Shown piece by piece: positions 1 to 8,708 of a DNA stretch of 64,000 nucleotides (positions within the stretch are counted from its first letter, which is position 1; every line of letters starts with the position of its first letter). This stretch comes from Thalassolituus oleivorans MIL-1. Lineage in GTDB: Bacteria; Pseudomonadota; Gammaproteobacteria; Pseudomonadales; Oceanobacteraceae. Location: contig NC_020888.1 in the NCBI RefSeq assembly GCF_000355675.1, positions 1,151,001 to 1,215,000 on the forward strand, given 5' to 3'. Under the pieces are notes generated by a model. The model was not told where the DNA came from and did not search any database. It was given only the letters and a program-made list of their open reading frames with translations. Both the position numbers and the translations under genes were made by a program.

Positions 1-791
1 GTAATACTTACGCCATTAATGGGGGCACCAGTGGCGGCGTTGAATACACGGCTGCTTGGATCAAAGCGGGTTGAGTCGCTAACAATATCCGTGCTGTCCG
101 CAGCATCCTGATAGGTTGCTACTACGGTTTGGCCAGATTTTACCGACAAAACACAGTTATACGATTGGCTGGTATTGCTCGCAACAGTCGTTGGCAATAC
201 ACCAGCAAATTTTCCAGTATTATTACCTGTTTCCGTTAGGCGAATGGTTTCGGTATCAGAACCATCACTGGAGGAAATTGTAATAACAATTTGGTCGGGA
301 CGAACAGGGTTGATATTTTTGTCGCCCTCAGTCACTAAAATAAATAGGGGTTCGCCTACTTTATAACCAAATTGATCGTCACTCAGGCTGTAGTTGCCTG
401 GCAAGCTATGACTCGTACCGCTTAAATCGGTAAAGCCAGTTAAAGAGGTGTAGTTACCGGCACTATCAGAGCATTCGCTATCGGTTAAATAGGTGTCGTT
501 GCTAGTACCGGTATCGTCGTAATGGCCAAGTGAGATTTCAGCAGGCGTCGGAGCAATCGGACCTGGATTAATTTCCTGAGTCGTTAAGCTCACTGACGCT
601 GCTTTCGTAAAATCAACACCGGCTACCTGATACGATGCCACTGCAGTATTTTCAATTTCCGTATTGGCAGGCGTGACCGCAGCGAATGCATTATTCGCTG
701 TCGTCATCGATAGCATACCCATTCCAGTCAGCAATACTGCCGCTCTGACAGTTGTCAGGAGTGATTTGCTGTGGGTATTGAACAGAGTCAT
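1..791 (-). CDS. Exported repeat-type surface protein, 3' end outside window
   Basis: The frame is open from the ATG at 791-789 to the left edge, so only the first 263 residues are visible. An N-terminal basic and hydrophobic stretch ending near NNAFA-AVTP is a signal peptide, so the protein is exported. The mature start (TPANTEIENTAVASYQVAG) resembles the amino ends of the DUF11-type proteins encoded just upstream. Further in, a beta-rich stretch (around ISSSDGSDTETIRLTETG) resembles modules of large secreted beta-sandwich proteins. It begins 13 bases after the preceding stop, so it is very likely the fifth gene of the same operon. No function can be assigned. Being last and possibly very long, it could be the structural or anchoring member, but that is inference. 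Confidence 0.8.
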   Translation of the reverse strand, partial: MTLFNTHSKSLLTTVRAAVLLTGMGMLSMTTANNAFAAVTPANTEIENTAVASYQVAGVDFTKAASVSLTTQEINPGPIAPTPAEISLGHYDDTGTSNDTYLTDSECSDSAGNYTSLTGFTDLSGTSHSLPGNYSLSDDQFGYKVGEPLFILVTEGDKNINPVRPDQIVITISSSDGSDTETIRLTETGNNTGKFAGVLPTTVASNTSQSYNCVLSVKSGQTVVATYQDAADSTDIVSDSTRFDPSSRVFNAATGAPINGVSI

Positions 792-804
792 CGTGTCAGT
801 TTCT

Positions 805-1917
805 TCAGTTAATAGTTACTTGAAAAACAATCACGTTGGCTTCTTCCGCGGCTACTTCGCCTAGGTTGGCCGTGATTACGCCACTGCTTTCCGTAACGTT
901 TGCGGCATCGGCGGCTGCCGGTGTTGCAAGGTCGTCGTAGCTAACTAACAGAGAGTCTGCAACGTAGGTAGTGTCAGTCGGCAATGTATCGGTAATGATG
1001 ACATTGGTTGCTGATGCACTACCTGTGTTTACGATGCGAATGGTGTACTTAACCACAGCGCCAGGGATGGCTTTAGGGTTGGTCGTGCCATTAATCGGAT
1101 CAGAGATAACAACCGATGTTTTCGTTAAGTTATCAATTCCGCCGTCACTGTTTAGGTTAGGGAATGCCAATTTTAAAACGTCGCTTAACACTTCTGAGTT
1201 GTCAGCATCCGCAGGGGTTGCACCGTTGGCATAAACCACTTCAATGGTGGTCGCGCCGTTAGCGATTGCTGCATCGTCTGTGCTGCCGTTGCTTGGATCG
1301 TTGTCGTCCGTATCTAGGTTGTAGGTTGTTCCATTAATAGTGGAAGCAACGCCATTAACCGTTAGATCTGTGATCGCAACGTCACCATCAACACCGGTGA
1401 TATTTTCTTTTGGTAAAACAACGAAAATAGTGACTGAATCGTCCGCAGGGATTTCATCTGTCACTGTGATCGCCGTGTCGCCGGCATCAAGTTGACCGTC
1501 ACCATTAACATCAACGTAATAGGTATAGGTACCCGTTAGGTCGATGGTATCGGTATAGTCATTGCCGTTGGCGTTTACCGTTGTTCCGGTTGCGTTTGCT
1601 GCTGCAACGGCAAACGACGTCGGCGCGTTACCAGTGTTGTTTACCACGAAAGCTGCAACGATAACGTTGTCAGTTTCTAATGATGTTTGGTTTGCATCAG
1701 TATTTAAACGTGCCAAATCAAAGTCGACTTTAATATCGACATTGAATTTATCTTCAGCAGTGACCGCAGTTTGGTCTATGCCGTTGATTTGGTAGTTAAG
1801 GGTTGCAGTGTTGGTAACTTCCGTACCTGCAGCAGTACCTGCTGCATGTACGTTGACTGCCAATCCGCTTAACGTCCCCAGTAATACTGGGGCAATCAGT
1901 TTTGAATATTTATTCAT
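805..1917 (-). CDS. Exported DUF11-type surface protein (370 aa)
   Basis: Residues 1-26 form a signal peptide (cleavage near VHA-AGT). The mature protein opens with GTEVTNTATLNYQINGIDQT, the start typical of secreted proteins with DUF11/isopeptide-type beta-sandwich domains. A dockerin- or EF-hand-like loop (DVNGDGQLDAGD, near residue 140) suggests calcium binding. The C-terminal third is a DUF11 module starting near SVVISDPINGTTNPKAIPGA and ending in FQVTIN. The same lead-in (SDP.NG.TNPKAIPGA) is in the tail of the broken gene at 3419-8097. The gene sits 19 bases after the 152-residue DUF11 protein gene and 13 before the next. Function unknown; a structural cell-surface or adhesive role is inferred. 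No sorting signal or membrane anchor is visible. Confidence 0.85.
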   Translation of the reverse strand: MNKYSKLIAPVLLGTLSGLAVNVHAAGTAAGTEVTNTATLNYQINGIDQTAVTAEDKFNVDIKVDFDLARLNTDANQTSLETDNVIVAAFVVNNTGNAPTSFAVAAANATGTTVNANGNDYTDTIDLTGTYTYYVDVNGDGQLDAGDTAITVTDEIPADDSVTIFVVLPKENITGVDGDVAITDLTVNGVASTINGTTYNLDTDDNDPSNGSTDDAAIANGATTIEVVYANGATPADADNSEVLSDVLKLAFPNLNSDGGIDNLTKTSVVISDPINGTTNPKAIPGAVVKYTIRIVNTGSASATNVIITDTLPTDTTYVADSLLVSYDDLATPAAADAANVTESSGVITANLGEVAAEEANVIVFQVTIN

Positions 1918-1936: not shown

Positions 1937-2395
1937 TTAATTAACGCGAACCTTAAACTCAACCGAACCACTTTTTCCGGCAGCAACTGCTTGCTGTAGG
2001 ACCCAACGGATTTGGTTGATATCTTGGGCTCGAGCTGGGCGTAATTGCCCATCCTCATCCACTTTCAAATCTTGCATACGAGCGAACAGCTCACCGTCTA
2101 CCGAGTAGGTGATGGTTGCAGCTTGACCGTTTGCACTATTTGCCACGTACGTGGTGTTTTCGGGCACAGGGTTATTAATCACTACGCCACTAACGGCTTC
2201 ACTGCCTGTGTTGGTGTAAGTGATCCGGTAGCCGATTTTATCGCCAGGGGCGATGGTTCCAGCATCCTGCCATTCTTCCACAACACTGCCATCGGCTTGA
2301 GTCACAGGTGCAACCAGAAACACTTCCGTGTTCAAGTTAACCTGAGCAAAAACGGATAACGGCAGTAGTAACAGCAAAGTCGTTAATAAGCGCAT
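1937..2395 (-). CDS. Small exported DUF11 single-domain protein (152 aa)
   Basis: A short signal peptide (MRLLTTLLLLLPLSVFA) is followed by one DUF11-like domain filling the rest of the protein, with the characteristic pattern PGDKIGYRITYTNTGSEAVS, then INNPVPENTTYVANSA, and a final EFKVRVN strand. It has no extra domain, so it may be a minimal subunit or cap of whatever the larger paralogues build (inference). The start ATG at 2395 has an upstream AAGAGG. It lies 14 bases after the gene at 2410-3408 and 19 before the one at 805-1917, consistent with one transcript. Exact role unknown. Confidence 0.82.
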   Translation of the reverse strand: MRLLTTLLLLLPLSVFAQVNLNTEVFLVAPVTQADGSVVEEWQDAGTIAPGDKIGYRITYTNTGSEAVSGVVINNPVPENTTYVANSANGQAATITYSVDGELFARMQDLKVDEDGQLRPARAQDINQIRWVLQQAVAAGKSGSVEFKVRVN

Positions 2396-2409: not shown

Positions 2410-3408
2410 TTATTTGATTTCAGCTTGTAACTGGATCACATAAGACGTGCCGCTAGTGACAGTACCGAGTGTTACGGTGACTGCACCTGCTGTTACATTG
2501 CTATTATCTGTAACATCGTCAGCATCTGTCTGTGCTGCAGCGTCCAACGTTAGGGTACCCGCAACGTAGGTCATGTTGGTTGGGATAGCATCAGTGATAA
2601 CTAGGTTATCAACGTCACCACCAACAACTTCAACATCGATTTGGTACGTTACGACAGTGCCTGGAACGTCAGTTGTGCCACCGAATGGATCAACGCGACC
2701 TGCGATTGTTTTCGATATATTAACGGTAGCGGTCGTTGGTTCTGCACCAATAGTGAAGGTTGCTGAAGCAGTATCCGTTACGTTGTTACCGACTACGGCG
2801 TCGCTAACACCAGTGCCTTCGCCGACTAACAAATCACCCGGTGCAGCAGTCGATGCTCCTGGAGTATCAGAGGTCGCTTCCAATTGAATTTTGGCGGTAT
2901 CACCAATGGTGGTTGCGCCAGCAGGAATATCAACCACCACAAAAATAGTCTTTGCTGGGTTAGATGAATTCGCATCTAAGTTGATAGAGCTACCCGACGT
3001 TAGCAATTGATCGCCAGCACTGAATACGCCATCACCGTCGGTATCAACGTAAACTTTGATATTTTCTGCGTCGAATTGGTCGCCTGCCAAGTTAGTAGCA
3101 TCGAGTGCAAATGCTTCACTACCGTTACCCGTGTTAGTGACGGTATAAGTCAGGACTTGTGCGGTATCGCCTGCATTAGTCGTTACTGGGGTAACGTTTT
3201 CTGCGGTTACGTTAACGCTGATCAGTTCTAATACTGTTAATTCAGCCGCATCACTGGTCGTTACGCCTGTTGTACCGGTCGCTGGATCATCAAAGGTCGC
3301 AACGGCGGTGTTAGTGATTTTAGTACCGGCTGGTGTGCCGATCGCCCATGTGGCCGAAGCCGATATAATCCCTGCGAATAGCAAGGCGCCTTTTACGATG
3401 GTCTTCAT
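2410..3408 (-). CDS. Exported DUF11-type surface protein (332 aa)
   Basis: The signal peptide ends near ATWA-IGTPAGTKITNTAVATF. The body has the same plan as the 370-residue protein at 805-1917: an amino-terminal beta domain, a calcium-loop-like motif (DTDGDGVFSAGD, about residue 125), and a C-terminal DUF11 module from VNISKTIAGRVDPFGGTTDV to the last strand VIQLQAEIK. The two are clearly paralogues that have diverged strongly. The ATG at 3408 follows an AAGGAG that overlaps the TAA of the upstream broken gene, so its translation was probably coupled to that gene. The upstream gene no longer reads through, so expression of this protein may depend on independent initiation. Function unknown; surface structural role inferred. 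Confidence 0.85.
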   Translation of the reverse strand: MKTIVKGALLFAGIISASATWAIGTPAGTKITNTAVATFDDPATGTTGVTTSDAAELTVLELISVNVTAENVTPVTTNAGDTAQVLTYTVTNTGNGSEAFALDATNLAGDQFDAENIKVYVDTDGDGVFSAGDQLLTSGSSINLDANSSNPAKTIFVVVDIPAGATTIGDTAKIQLEATSDTPGASTAAPGDLLVGEGTGVSDAVVGNNVTDTASATFTIGAEPTTATVNISKTIAGRVDPFGGTTDVPGTVVTYQIDVEVVGGDVDNLVITDAIPTNMTYVAGTLTLDAAAQTDADDVTDNSNVTAGAVTVTLGTVTSGTSYVIQLQAEIK

Positions 3409-3991
3409 GGAATGCTCCTTATTGGACCTTTACTTTATAAATGAGAGTGAATTGCGGCGAGCCGCCTCCAACACTGCCTGGCATAGTGCCTTTCGGAGTA
3501 ATACGTATGTCCGTTACTAACGGATCAAATCCATCGGCATCGGGATTAGGTATATAGGTAAAACTGGTACCGCCGTTATTGGAGAAATCAATGTCATCGG
3601 TAGCAGAATCTAAACTGGTAAATGTTAAAGTAAGAGTCGACGCCGGTGTCCCATCAGCTAATTCAATAGGACTACCATTAGCGAAATTACCCACAAATAA
3701 CGGAGTATTTGCGGCGAGGTGATCAATTAACTGAATGCTATCGGGATCACTTTCGCCTTCACCTTGATTGATGATATTTAATTGATATGCGACCTCTGCA
3801 CCTGGAATCGCTTTTGGGTTAGTGCTGCCATTTAACGGGTCGGATAATACGTTCATGGTTTTTGTCAGAATTAATTCTGGCGGTAAACGCAAGCTGATCG
3901 TTTGGGTGCGATTATGGAATACCGTACCTTCGAAGCCTTCGTTGGCTTCTACAGTAATGGTCCACTCGCCACCATTAGCAGTCGTTGGTAC

Positions 3992-4037
3992 TAAATATGG
4001 GTATTCGTAGGTATTAAATATGGGTATTCGTAGGTAT
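3992..4037. repeat. Perfect 23-bp tandem duplication causing a frameshift
   Basis: Bases 3992-4014 and 4015-4037 are identical 23-mers placed head to tail. As 23 is not a multiple of three, the second copy throws the minus-strand frame into an early TAG. With one copy deleted the protein reads NTYEYPYLVPTTANGGEWTI and continues without a stop into the downstream DUF11 segment. The perfect identity means the event is recent or an assembly artefact, and replication slippage could reverse it. Confidence 0.93.
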
Positions 4038-4795
4038 TAATTGCACCGCTACTGGCCACAGGAGAGAGGGTTGCTTCAGATATCGGCAGGTCGCCAGTGG
4101 TGTTCGCAACGGTAAGTAATGCGCCGTTAATGTCGTAGTAACCGAACGGATCAGATACCTGACTACGGAAATAAATTTGCTGGCCGCGATCAATACTTGT
4201 TAGTTCATTTCCAGCAGGGTATGGCGCATCAAATACAGAAATGGAATTAACGTTAATGACTGTATTAGAAGTTAGTAGTACGGCGGCAGGGGTACCGCTA
4301 TGCGACGAATAAACATTCAAGTTGCGATAAGTTGGAAACGCTTGGGAGCCGCCGTTACGTGATTGGCTGATAACGAGTTCAAGTAAATCACCGGCTTCCA
4401 AGGTAACGGGATTGCTAATCGCCAAATCGAATTGGAAACTACGAATCGTATCTTGCCCCGAATTATTACCAGCACCGATTAAATCAATGGCTTGAGACGC
4501 GGACGCAATATTTGTAGTAGCCCCTGAACGCTTTCTACGCAGGGTAGCAGTGACTGTATGATTGAATGTGTTATTTACAAACGTTCCGCTAGTCGCTGAG
4601 TTTTGTAGAAATAGCTGAACTGGAATAGAGGAGTTGTAATTCAGACTCACCGATGTTTGTAAGGCCGGGCTGATAGCCCACGTATTACTCTGATCATCAT
4701 TAATGGTGACAAAGTTTTCTTCCGTGCTTGCGATACGTGTAAGCGAACTATCGCTATGCAAATATAAAGGCTTATTACCTGATCCATCGATAACA

Positions 4796-6393
4796 TTATT
4801 CACCGTCAGTGTCGGCGACGAAAATGTATAGCTTTGGCCGTTGTTGCCCGCGACTGCTGTGTTGGTAACGCTGTTACCGTTCTGAGCACCGCTAGACAAG
4901 ATGGCTTCAATAACGACTGTCACGCTACTCGCGGCACTAATACTGATATTGTCGATTTGAACGAGGCCACTGCTATTGCTTCCTGCCGGTGCAATCTCAC
5001 TGTTGTTGATACTTCCTGCAGGGATGGTTACTAACGTGTAGCTGCTAATCAACGCGGGCATATTGTCAGTTAACGACAAGTTGGTTGCATTGAAGTTGCT
5101 GCTGTTTTTCAAAGTGATGGTATAGCGCAGGGTATCGCCAGGCTCCAGTAACCCACCATTCAGATCGGTAACCGTTTTGGTACTTGTCGACAAATTAGCG
5201 TCTTGCAGAATAACCGCTAGGTCATCGCTGTTGTCGCTACTATCGTTATCGAAGTTGCTGCCGCTTAACGTTGCCGAGCCAACGGTGGTTGCTTGAGTTG
5301 TATTTGTAGTGCCAATTTGTATAGCCAGCGGAGTAGAGGAAGCACCGTTATTGATACTTTGTGCATAAGTACAAACCACTTCAGTCAGTGTGGAAGTACA
5401 AGTCCAGTCCGTGCCACTAGCGCTAATAAATGTAGCGCCATCATTGAGGGGAATACGAATTTCGCTACCAATAGGTGCTGTTGATGGACCATCGTTGCGC
5501 GCAGTAAATGAATAATTAATGTTGGCGCCACGAGATACTTTCGCTGGCGCCGTGGTAAGCAGATGCAAATCAGATACTAATTCGTTGGGAACACTGATGA
5601 TCTCAGCGGTCAAAAATACTTTGTCTTGACCAGATGAATAAGTAGTAGAGACTGATGTTGCGCCGGGAGTTAGATAGCTGCCAATTTGGTATGTGTCGAT
5701 ATCAACGCCACTGGTAGCAGCCGCAACTGTATTAGAGTAGGAGTTGAACTGATTACCAGCTGGGTTATTGGCGTCGGTTAAGCTGTTGCCTTCAAATATT
5801 AATGCTTCACTGAACCCGCCGGTGCTTTGTGAGTTACCCGCATCACCTTCCCAAGTAATGTGAGCATGCTGACCACCTAAAGTCGCAGCATTCTGTGCAA
5901 TAACAAAATTATTAGGCGATAGGGTAATCGAACTGCCGGTGAAACTTTTGAAACCGTCATATAAATTCACAACGCGCAAAGGCTCTGACGCGTTTTCATA
6001 AATAGCGAGTATCGACCAGCCACCGTATACGACAGCGTTATTACAATAAGTACTGCTAGTATCGAAGGTGAGACCTGTAACTGTATAAGTGCCGCCAGTA
6101 GCGCTAATGCGGCTAGTAATATCCGCGCGTGCACTATAAAAGGTCTGGTTACCTGACGATTCATTATAGGTGTAGCCTGCGGTAACTGCGGAGCCATTCA
6201 AGTTGACCGAGTTATCCGTTGAACCTGAGCCAGACCAATACAAATAAGCCGCTTTGATGGTGCTACCAGACGGAATGGTCAAGCTCGCACTTGAGCTTGT
6301 GAGTGCGTTACATTCGTTGCTGCTTGAACGCATTGAGTTGCCGGTTAATTTAAACGACAAATTTCCAGCCAAGCTTGAACGTAATACGATTTC
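4796..6393 (-). repeat. Second copy of the ~535-residue intragenic repeat unit
   Basis: This begins at EIVLRSSLAGNLSF and ends near SYTFSSPTLTV. It matches the upstream unit at 6394-8010 motif for motif (AYLYWSGSGS, VTGLTF, YGGW, HAHITWEGD, GNQFNSYSN, TYSSGQDKVFL, LTDNMPA.ISS). Translation similarity is high but far from identical, so the duplication is old, unlike the 23-bp duplication. Confidence 0.85.
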
Positions 6394-8010
6394 CCCGTTG
6401 GATGCAGTGCTAGCCACAGACACGGTTGGCGCCGTAATCGTATAGGTGGTTGTGCTGTTACCAATAATTGCGCTGTTAGTTATATTGGTCCCTTGGGCCG
6501 CAGAACTTGAAACAATAGCGTCAATGACGACTTCTTCTGTCCCTTGAGCCGCAATCATTAAGTTATCAATAATGACGACACCCGCACTATTGGTGCCAGT
6601 CGGTGCTGCAGTACTGTTATTAATACTGTCGACAGGTTGACGAACAACCTCGAAACTACTGATAGCTGCCGGCATATTGTCGGTTAAACGGATGCCTTCA
6701 GCATTGAAGTCGCTTGTATTATTGATATCAATTGTAAAGCGCAGCTTATCCCCTGGCTGAACAGTGCCACCGTTGACGTCCAACACACTCTTTACTGAGG
6801 TCGATCAATTAGGATCAGCAAGCGTTACGGCCATGCTGACACTATTGTCACCCTCATTGTTATCGAAGTTAGAGCCTGCAGCCACGGCCGTTCCTGAAAT
6901 GGTGTTGGTCGTAGCATTGCTGGTGCCAACAACAAGAGTCAGCGCTGGTGCGGTTACGTTGTCGGTAAGTGCTTTGTTGTATGTACAAAGCACTTGGCTG
7001 CTGGTGTTGGTGCATGACCAATCAGTTCCCGTGGCACTGATAAAGGTAACGCCATTATTTAATGGAATCGTTAACGTTGTACCAGTAGGTTCGTCAATCG
7101 GACCGTCGTTCTTCACTGAAAATTGGTAGCTAATATTGCTGCCGCGAGCAACCGCTGTCGTTGGGGCGGTAACCGTTAGTGAAAGATCGCTGACCGGTTC
7201 ATTGGGAATACTGATAATTTCAGCCGAAAGGAAAACTTGGTCTTGGCCCGAGGAATACGTCGTCGCAACCGAACGAGATCCTGCCGTTAAAAAACTGCCA
7301 ATGTTATAGATGTCGAGATCAACCCCAGAAGTCGTGGCGCCAACAGCATTAGAGTATGAGTTAAATTGGTTACCACTTGGGTTGTTCGTACTGGTTAAAC
7401 TGGTTCCGTTGAAAACTAACGACTCGCTAATACCGTTACGAGAATCAGAGTTGCCAGAATCACCTTCCCAAGTGATGTGAGCGTGCTTGCCGCCAAGAGA
7501 CGCAGGGTTTGGGGCTACCACGAAGTTATTTGGTGTCAGGGTAATTGAACTGCCCCAGTAAACGCGGAAACCATCAAATAGATTAACGACTCGCAATGGC
7601 TCAGAGTTATTTTCGTATACCGCTAATAGAGCCCAACCACCATAAGCCCCTTCAGTCGAGCAATAGGCGTCTGCCGTGCTAAAGGTCAAACCGGTTACTG
7701 TATAAGTAGATGTCGAGGCGGAGATACGACCCGTGACGTCGGCTTTGGCGCTGTAATAGGTTTCGTTGTTACCCGTTTCGGTATAACTAACGGCTGCACT
7801 AACGGATGCACCATTTAAACTAACGCTCGTATCGGGCGAGCCAGACCCTGACCAGTAAAGATAAGCCGCTTTTAAGGTACTACCGGTTGGAATCGTCAGT
7901 GTTGCACTTGAGCTGGTAAGTACTCCGCAGCCGTTGGTGCCGCTGCGCATGGTGTTACCGGTCAAGGCGAAAGATAAATTACCAGCAAAGCTTTTGCGCA
8001 GAACGATATC
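6394..8010 (-). repeat. First copy of the ~535-residue intragenic repeat unit
   Basis: This begins at DIVLRKSFAGNLSF just after the signal peptide and ends near TYTITAPTVSV. It carries the nonsense codon at 6805-6807. The second copy (4796-6393) provides the internal control showing that the frame should continue: NLSTSTKTV there against N-stop-STSVKSV here. Confidence 0.85.
6805..6807 (-). other. In-frame TGA nonsense codon inside the giant DUF11 gene
   Basis: On the minus strand the frame reads ADPN, TGA, STSVKSVLDVNGG. The paralogous unit has DANLSTSTKTVTDLNGG, with TTG (Leu) at the same place. Codons before and after the TGA are in the same frame, so this is a point interruption, not a gene boundary. 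The nearest later initiator is a GTG at 6786 with no good ribosome site. Confidence 0.88.
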
Positions 8011-8097
8011 TTGGGCGTAAGAGATTGGTGCGACTAAAAAGCACAATAACAGCACAAGCCCAGAGCAAAATCCGTTTTTAGGCAGGTTGTTTAGCAT

Positions 8098-8708
8098 GTT
8101 TAAAATTTTGGAATTCCGTGTTTTCAAAAAATTAACCTGAACTTTTATCGAAAAAAAAAGTCGCGCCATGTTCATGGCTGGAGATCATAGGGTTTGTAAC
8201 ATCTCGCGTCAATTTACAGCCAATATGTAGCCAAAGTTTTCCATCATGTGGTAAGCGCTTGATTTAGCGATGAATATTCGATATTCGCCGCTTGTATTGA
8301 TAAAACTACTTTATATCTGTTTATTGATCGTTTTTGAGCGATAAAAGAGGGCATAGGTCACATGAAAACATGGAATATCGGACCTAAAGTGACAAAAATT
8401 GTCACTATGTAAATCTTGTGCAAGCGGCGGTATATCTTGGCTATTTTCTTCATTTCACTACCTATGTGTAACGATTGGTTTCCAACGCGGTGAAAGAGTA
8501 ACTGTCTGTCACCTTATATATACGCTGTAAACATCTTGTTAGATGCGCATAGTGCAATGATTTTTAGCTGGAGCAGGGTGCCCTTAAAAGATTGCAGCAA
8601 TGTGAATGTATGATTTTTTTGATTAGCGTGACATTTTGGTCTCAACAGAGGGCTTTGGTTTAGAGGGTGCTATCAGTGGGGTATCAGTTAACAGACTAGA
8701 GTAGATAC
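8098..8708. other. Intergenic region upstream of the DUF11 operon
   Basis: About 610 bases carry no convincing gene. The stretch is AT-rich and must hold the minus-strand promoter of the DUF11 operon. One short perfect inverted repeat (8389-8405) stands out. No small protein or structured RNA was recognised. Confidence 0.6.
8389..8405. promoter_or_regulatory. Perfect short inverted repeat, possible operator
   Basis: The sequence GTGACAAAAATTGTCAC has 7-base arms and a 3-base centre, about 290 bases upstream of the DUF11 operon start. The symmetry and AT-rich centre suit a dimeric regulator. The regulator is unknown and the distance is large for a classical operator. Confidence 0.35.

Follow-up and report, generated by a model that had tools for sequence, protein, structure and literature searches.

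Thalassolituus oleivorans MIL-1 carries a perfect 23-bp tandem duplication inside a giant gene for an exported-looking protein, which raises the question of whether such a duplication is a switch, an assembly error or a mark of gene loss. The MIL-1 genome is a single contig of 3,920,328 bases, and the stretch of it analysed here (64,000 nucleotides, positions 1,151,001 to 1,215,000) is referred to as the window. The features concerned are listed in Table 1.

Table 1. Features of the duplicated region, gene 1 and the genes downstream of it (window positions)
Feature	Position	Strand	Remarks
23-bp unit 1	3992-4014	.	first copy
23-bp unit 2	4015-4037	.	identical to unit 1; period-23 identity extends to 4040
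Left 13-bp imperfect repeat	3982-3994	.	possible slippage seed (putative role)
Right 13-bp imperfect repeat	4028-4040	.	putative role
Gene 1, N-terminal piece	6805-8175	-	456 aa; signal-like N-terminus, DUF3344-like 280-residue domain, DUF11
Gene 1, middle piece	3991-6804	-	937 open codons, DUF11; frame shared with N-terminal piece
Gene 1, C-terminal piece	3419-4036	-	shifted frame; 205 open codons and stop
Gene 2	2410-3408	-	332 aa, open
Gene 3	1937-2395	-	152 aa, DUF11, open
Gene 4	805-1917	-	370 aa, DUF11, open
Gene 5, start	1-791	-	DUF11 and OmpA domains; about 1,950 aa in relatives

The duplication and the reading frames of gene 1

The initial annotation described two identical adjacent 23-mers, and the two units indeed match letter for letter. 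The period-23 identity holds over 26 positions, giving an array of 49 bp (3992-4040). With a score threshold of 50 or more, Tandem Repeats Finder reported a single array in the window, 3982-4040, of 2.6 copies including the imperfect part. In a scan of periods 4 to 399 that required one full unit or more and 14 or more matched positions in a row, this was also the window's single perfect head-to-tail duplication, and it is therefore not attributed to chance. The two 13-bp stretches at its boundaries agree in 11 of 13 bases. Perfect tandem duplications with a unit of at least 15 bp were found at five sites in a 524-kb sample of the chromosome (18, 21, 21, 23 and 30 bp), the 18-bp site being a multi-copy array. 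Of the four sites besides the 23-bp one, two, with 18- and 21-bp units, lie within predicted ORFs and keep the frame; the remaining two lie outside any predicted ORF of at least 60 aa. Such duplications are not unique in this sample, and the 23-bp one alone breaks a frame. Outside the window, at G000:C1:953453-953577, an 18-bp unit is present in several perfect copies within a 1,218-aa ORF and preserves its frame.

Gene 1, which encodes a giant DUF11 protein, is read from the minus strand (8175 to 3419). Its N-terminal piece ends at an in-frame TGA (6805-6807) upstream of the duplication, and its middle piece ends at a TAG (3991-3993) inside the duplicated region. Codons start at 0 mod 3 in the middle piece and at 1 mod 3 in the C-terminal piece, an offset that equals one 23-bp unit (-23 mod 3 = 1). 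When aligned with the relatives' proteins, the last part of the middle piece and the first part of the C-terminal piece fall on the same columns. This indicates that the duplication frameshifts the giant gene, as had been proposed. The further proposal, that deletion of one copy restores a continuous protein, stands for the two frames, which do join, but not for the protein as a whole: the TGA, absent from that first account, interrupts gene 1 independently and still truncates it. Translation of gene 1 would stop after 456 aa, leaving a product that keeps the signal sequence and lacks the middle and C-terminal parts.

The DUF11 profile (PF01345) matched the middle piece at 56.9 bits and the C-terminal end of the N-terminal piece at 40.1 bits, against a curated Pfam cut-off of 24.6; it had no match in the C-terminal piece of gene 1. 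Judged by eye, the N-terminal piece begins with a hydrophobic, signal-like stretch, and no signal sequence was seen on the middle or C-terminal piece. The DUF11 matches and this N-terminus agree with the earlier description of a giant, exported-looking DUF11 protein. The 280-residue domain after the signal was modelled as all-beta, with a mean pLDDT of 90.5. Two of 17 aligned copies of this domain matched DUF3344, and the window's own copy had no Pfam match at E 0.1. A sequence search of solved structures found no such domain, and every one of the 50 matches shown in a fold search had a TM-score below 0.4; with no convincing solved relative for the domain, no function is drawn from it. Gene 1 thus resembles DUF11 repeat proteins (PF01345, TIGR01451) with a DUF3344-like domain in the above-threshold DUF11 matches of its N-terminal and middle pieces, and differs from them in that its own domain copy lacks both a Pfam match and a convincing solved relative. 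In MIL-1 and its genus relatives, gene 1 contains two related stretches of the 280-residue domain (window 7174-8013 and within the middle piece, 3991-6804). Several shorter orthologues in the family (about 1,030 aa) contain a single stretch.

The five-gene cluster in MIL-1 and its relatives

The genes downstream of gene 1 are spaced by 10 to 19 bases. Genes 2 to 4 remain open in MIL-1, and gene 5 is split by an in-frame TAG at G000:C1:1147427-1147429 (L042:3427-3429), 3.57 kb left of the window. The gene order of the cluster is kept in seven of the nine relatives whose regions were compared. In G006 the contig ends within gene 1; in G009 gene 1 stands alone, and the gene-5 match is on another contig. 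The cluster encodes the giant DUF11 protein, three small proteins of similar type and a protein of about 1,950 aa with DUF11 and OmpA domains, and it is widespread in the family sample. A role in the cell envelope, and nothing more specific, can be proposed from three features: the signal-like N-terminus, the DUF11 repeats and, in gene 5, the OmpA domain.

A search with part of the middle piece of gene 1 found matches in 23 of 55 genomes, MIL-1 included, and 22 of these belong to the same family. Within the family, 22 of 34 genomes have gene-1 matches and 26 of 34 have long gene-5 matches. The best gene-1 match falls within a single open frame of 1,023 aa or more in 20 of the 22 family genomes (MIL-1 counted), the exceptions being MIL-1 and G031. 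Gene 5 is free of stops in 25 of the 26 family genomes with a long match (MIL-1 counted), and the exception is MIL-1. Four genus members have gene-1 open frames of 1,568 to 1,610 aa, and the duplicated region is present once, in a single open frame, in four genus relatives. No perfect tandem duplication with a period of 10 to 40 was found in gene 1 of any of the eight relatives examined. These comparisons uphold the view that the duplication is recent. The compared relatives are about 50-58% identical to MIL-1 in gene 1, a distance at which the lesions cannot be closely dated. A conspecific strain, T. oleivorans R6-15 (CP006829), is recorded at 96.92% nucleotide identity (PMC4149008).

Damage to gene 1 was also found elsewhere in the genus. 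In Thalassolituus marinus IMCC1826 (L067:5091-7603), the gene-1 orthologue lies in two frames, and about 167 residues are missing between its pieces in comparison with T. alkanivorans; gene 5 of this strain is open (1,955 aa). The break is apparently independent of the MIL-1 lesions. The gene-1 pieces used as queries had no match in G002 (99% complete), G007 (95%) or G005 (80%), and the gene-5 matches listed for these genomes cover the OmpA-like part alone. The cluster was not found in three of the nine genus genomes.

Rarity and age of the damage

The frequency of split genes was estimated by comparing ORFs of at least 150 aa, from 370 kb of the relative G003 and 283 kb of the relative G004, with the 524-kb MIL-1 sample. 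For G003, 214 of 280 ORFs had a best match of at least 40% identity, of which 205 were whole, 3 split and 6 partial. The corresponding figures for G004 were 180 of 213, with 170 whole, 4 split and 6 partial. Unmatched ORFs and those with a best match under 40% identity (20 for G003, 11 for G004) were left out of these counts, and further broken genes may be present among the six partial matches of each comparison. In the reverse direction, MIL-1 ORFs were split in 2 of 226 cases in G003 and in 0 of 182 in G004.

The genes split in MIL-1 are gene 1, gene 5 and a GGDEF-domain gene with an in-frame TAG. A fourth split, seen against G004 (G000:C1:1075023-1075943), was judged spurious and assigned to an over-long start in the relative. 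The GGDEF (diguanylate cyclase) gene is located outside the window at G000:C1:1118840-1120093 (L109:7840-9093), with its TAG at 1119554-1119556, and is whole in both G003 (422 aa) and G004 (423 aa). Genes 1 and 5 account for 4.3% of the coding length that was matched, and the chance that at least three of four lesions fall in them is 0.0003. Because the duplication was the starting point of the analysis, the chance that at least two of the other three lesions fall there, about 0.005, is the fairer figure.

The age of the damage was assessed from the MIL-1 branch relative to the G003-G004 distance, with 138 genes as controls. Ranked among these controls, the three pieces of gene 1 stand at 75, 107 and 24 and the two of gene 5 at 101 and 82. 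The value for the middle piece of gene 1 slightly exceeds the upper quartile of the controls (1.07 vs 1.03), a weak hint of earlier relaxation. Since the pieces are not clearly accelerated relative to the controls, either the damage is of recent date or the pieces remain in use. Long-standing decay was also considered, and is not clearly supported by these branch lengths.

Readings of the damage

It is likely that the duplication arose by slippage at the 13-bp imperfect repeats, and that a conserved five-gene cluster has recently taken three inactivating lesions, of which the duplication is one. These lesions are the TGA and the extra 23 bp in gene 1, together with the gene-5 TAG. Originally, the two 13-bp stretches would have been 23 bp apart; if a nascent strand slipped from one back to the other, a 23-bp unit would be copied a second time. 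The anatomy of the repeats thus points to replication slippage as the route. Little further decay has followed: all pieces of genes 1 and 5 are open, and their branch lengths are ordinary. The same open pieces and ordinary branch lengths also fit genes that are still in use, and the open state of genes 2 to 4 likewise speaks against recent loss. The five-gene cluster is most likely non-functional in MIL-1, and recent gene loss of an ordinary kind fits the locus better than an on/off switch does. It resembles a recent bacterial pseudogene in a surface-protein operon, in which few lesions lie in otherwise open genes and relatives keep whole orthologues. It differs in that loss of function is here deduced, and in that a perfect tandem duplication could in principle be lost again. 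MIL-1, the type strain and a prominent marine oil degrader, is probably without an outer-surface system that its relatives keep, and work on surface, attachment or phages in this strain may be atypical of the genus. A literature search returned no paper naming both Thalassolituus and DUF11 and nothing specific to the locus; in the available portions of PMC6304351 and PMC4292784, matches on locus-related subjects are confined to the reference lists.

A broader proposal, possible although doubtful, is that hydrocarbon-degrading Thalassolituus and their kin have lost the DUF11/OmpA cluster repeatedly under selection, with the slippage duplication as one selected knock-out. Recurrent loss would comprise the three hits in MIL-1, the frame-breaking deletion in T. 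marinus and the three genus genomes in which no cluster was found. The selective pressure could be escape from phages that use the structure as a receptor, or a burden that the structure imposes in culture or while the cells grow on oil.

An assembly artefact had been raised from the beginning. An assembly or sequencing error, with a true gene of one copy and stops that are base errors, is unlikely. Spurious pseudogenes made by assembly are described as common in the available part of PMC11017572, and the MIL-1 assembly used Phrap on a subset of the reads, with finishing by in-house software (PMC3630401); the ordinary branch lengths would fit intact genes as well. However, the genome was sequenced at 294x coverage with an error rate below 1 in 100,000, and its 100-base Illumina reads can span the 49-bp array (PMC3630401). 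Three errors would be needed in one cluster, yet 205 of 214 compared genes are whole. The 11-of-13 half-repeat at the boundaries of the duplication, moreover, is what slippage predicts.

The duplication had also been taken as a candidate phase switch, in which slippage gain or loss of one 23-bp copy would toggle the exported protein. The idea is tempting: the repeat is perfect, its unit is not a multiple of three, the protein is giant and looks exported, and the copy number does alter the reading frame, as in a contingency locus. There is also a precedent, since tandem duplications in reading frames cause phase variation in pneumococcal capsule genes (Waite et al. 2001, 2003, as cited in the available part of PMC4022640). 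The same part of that source gives an expected reversion of at most about 10^-5, with insertions of up to nine bases. The likeness to the capsule genes lies in a short spontaneous duplication in the reading frame of a surface-related gene; the difference is that MIL-1 has two further, non-repeat lesions that are independent of copy number. Lying downstream of the signal sequence and upstream of the duplication, the TGA cuts gene 1 short at either copy number, and the TAG breaks gene 5 regardless of it. Because of these two stops, the phase switch is set aside as very unlikely. The repeat is not kept in relatives either, as all eight examined lack it.

It is extremely unlikely that the pieces still work, as separate polypeptides or through stop-codon readthrough: all of them are open and none is clearly accelerated, but inspection by eye showed no signal sequence on the middle or C-terminal piece, and readthrough would leave the frame break uncured. 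A suppressor tRNA or recoding was considered as well. None of the 48 tRNA matches in MIL-1 has a stop-reading anticodon, in a list that is incomplete, as it holds no isoleucine tRNA and 22 first-look candidates are unscored; the genome paper counts 49 tRNAs (PMC3630401). Other MIL-1 genes end on these two codons exactly where their G003 counterparts end, 26 on TAG and 40 on TGA.
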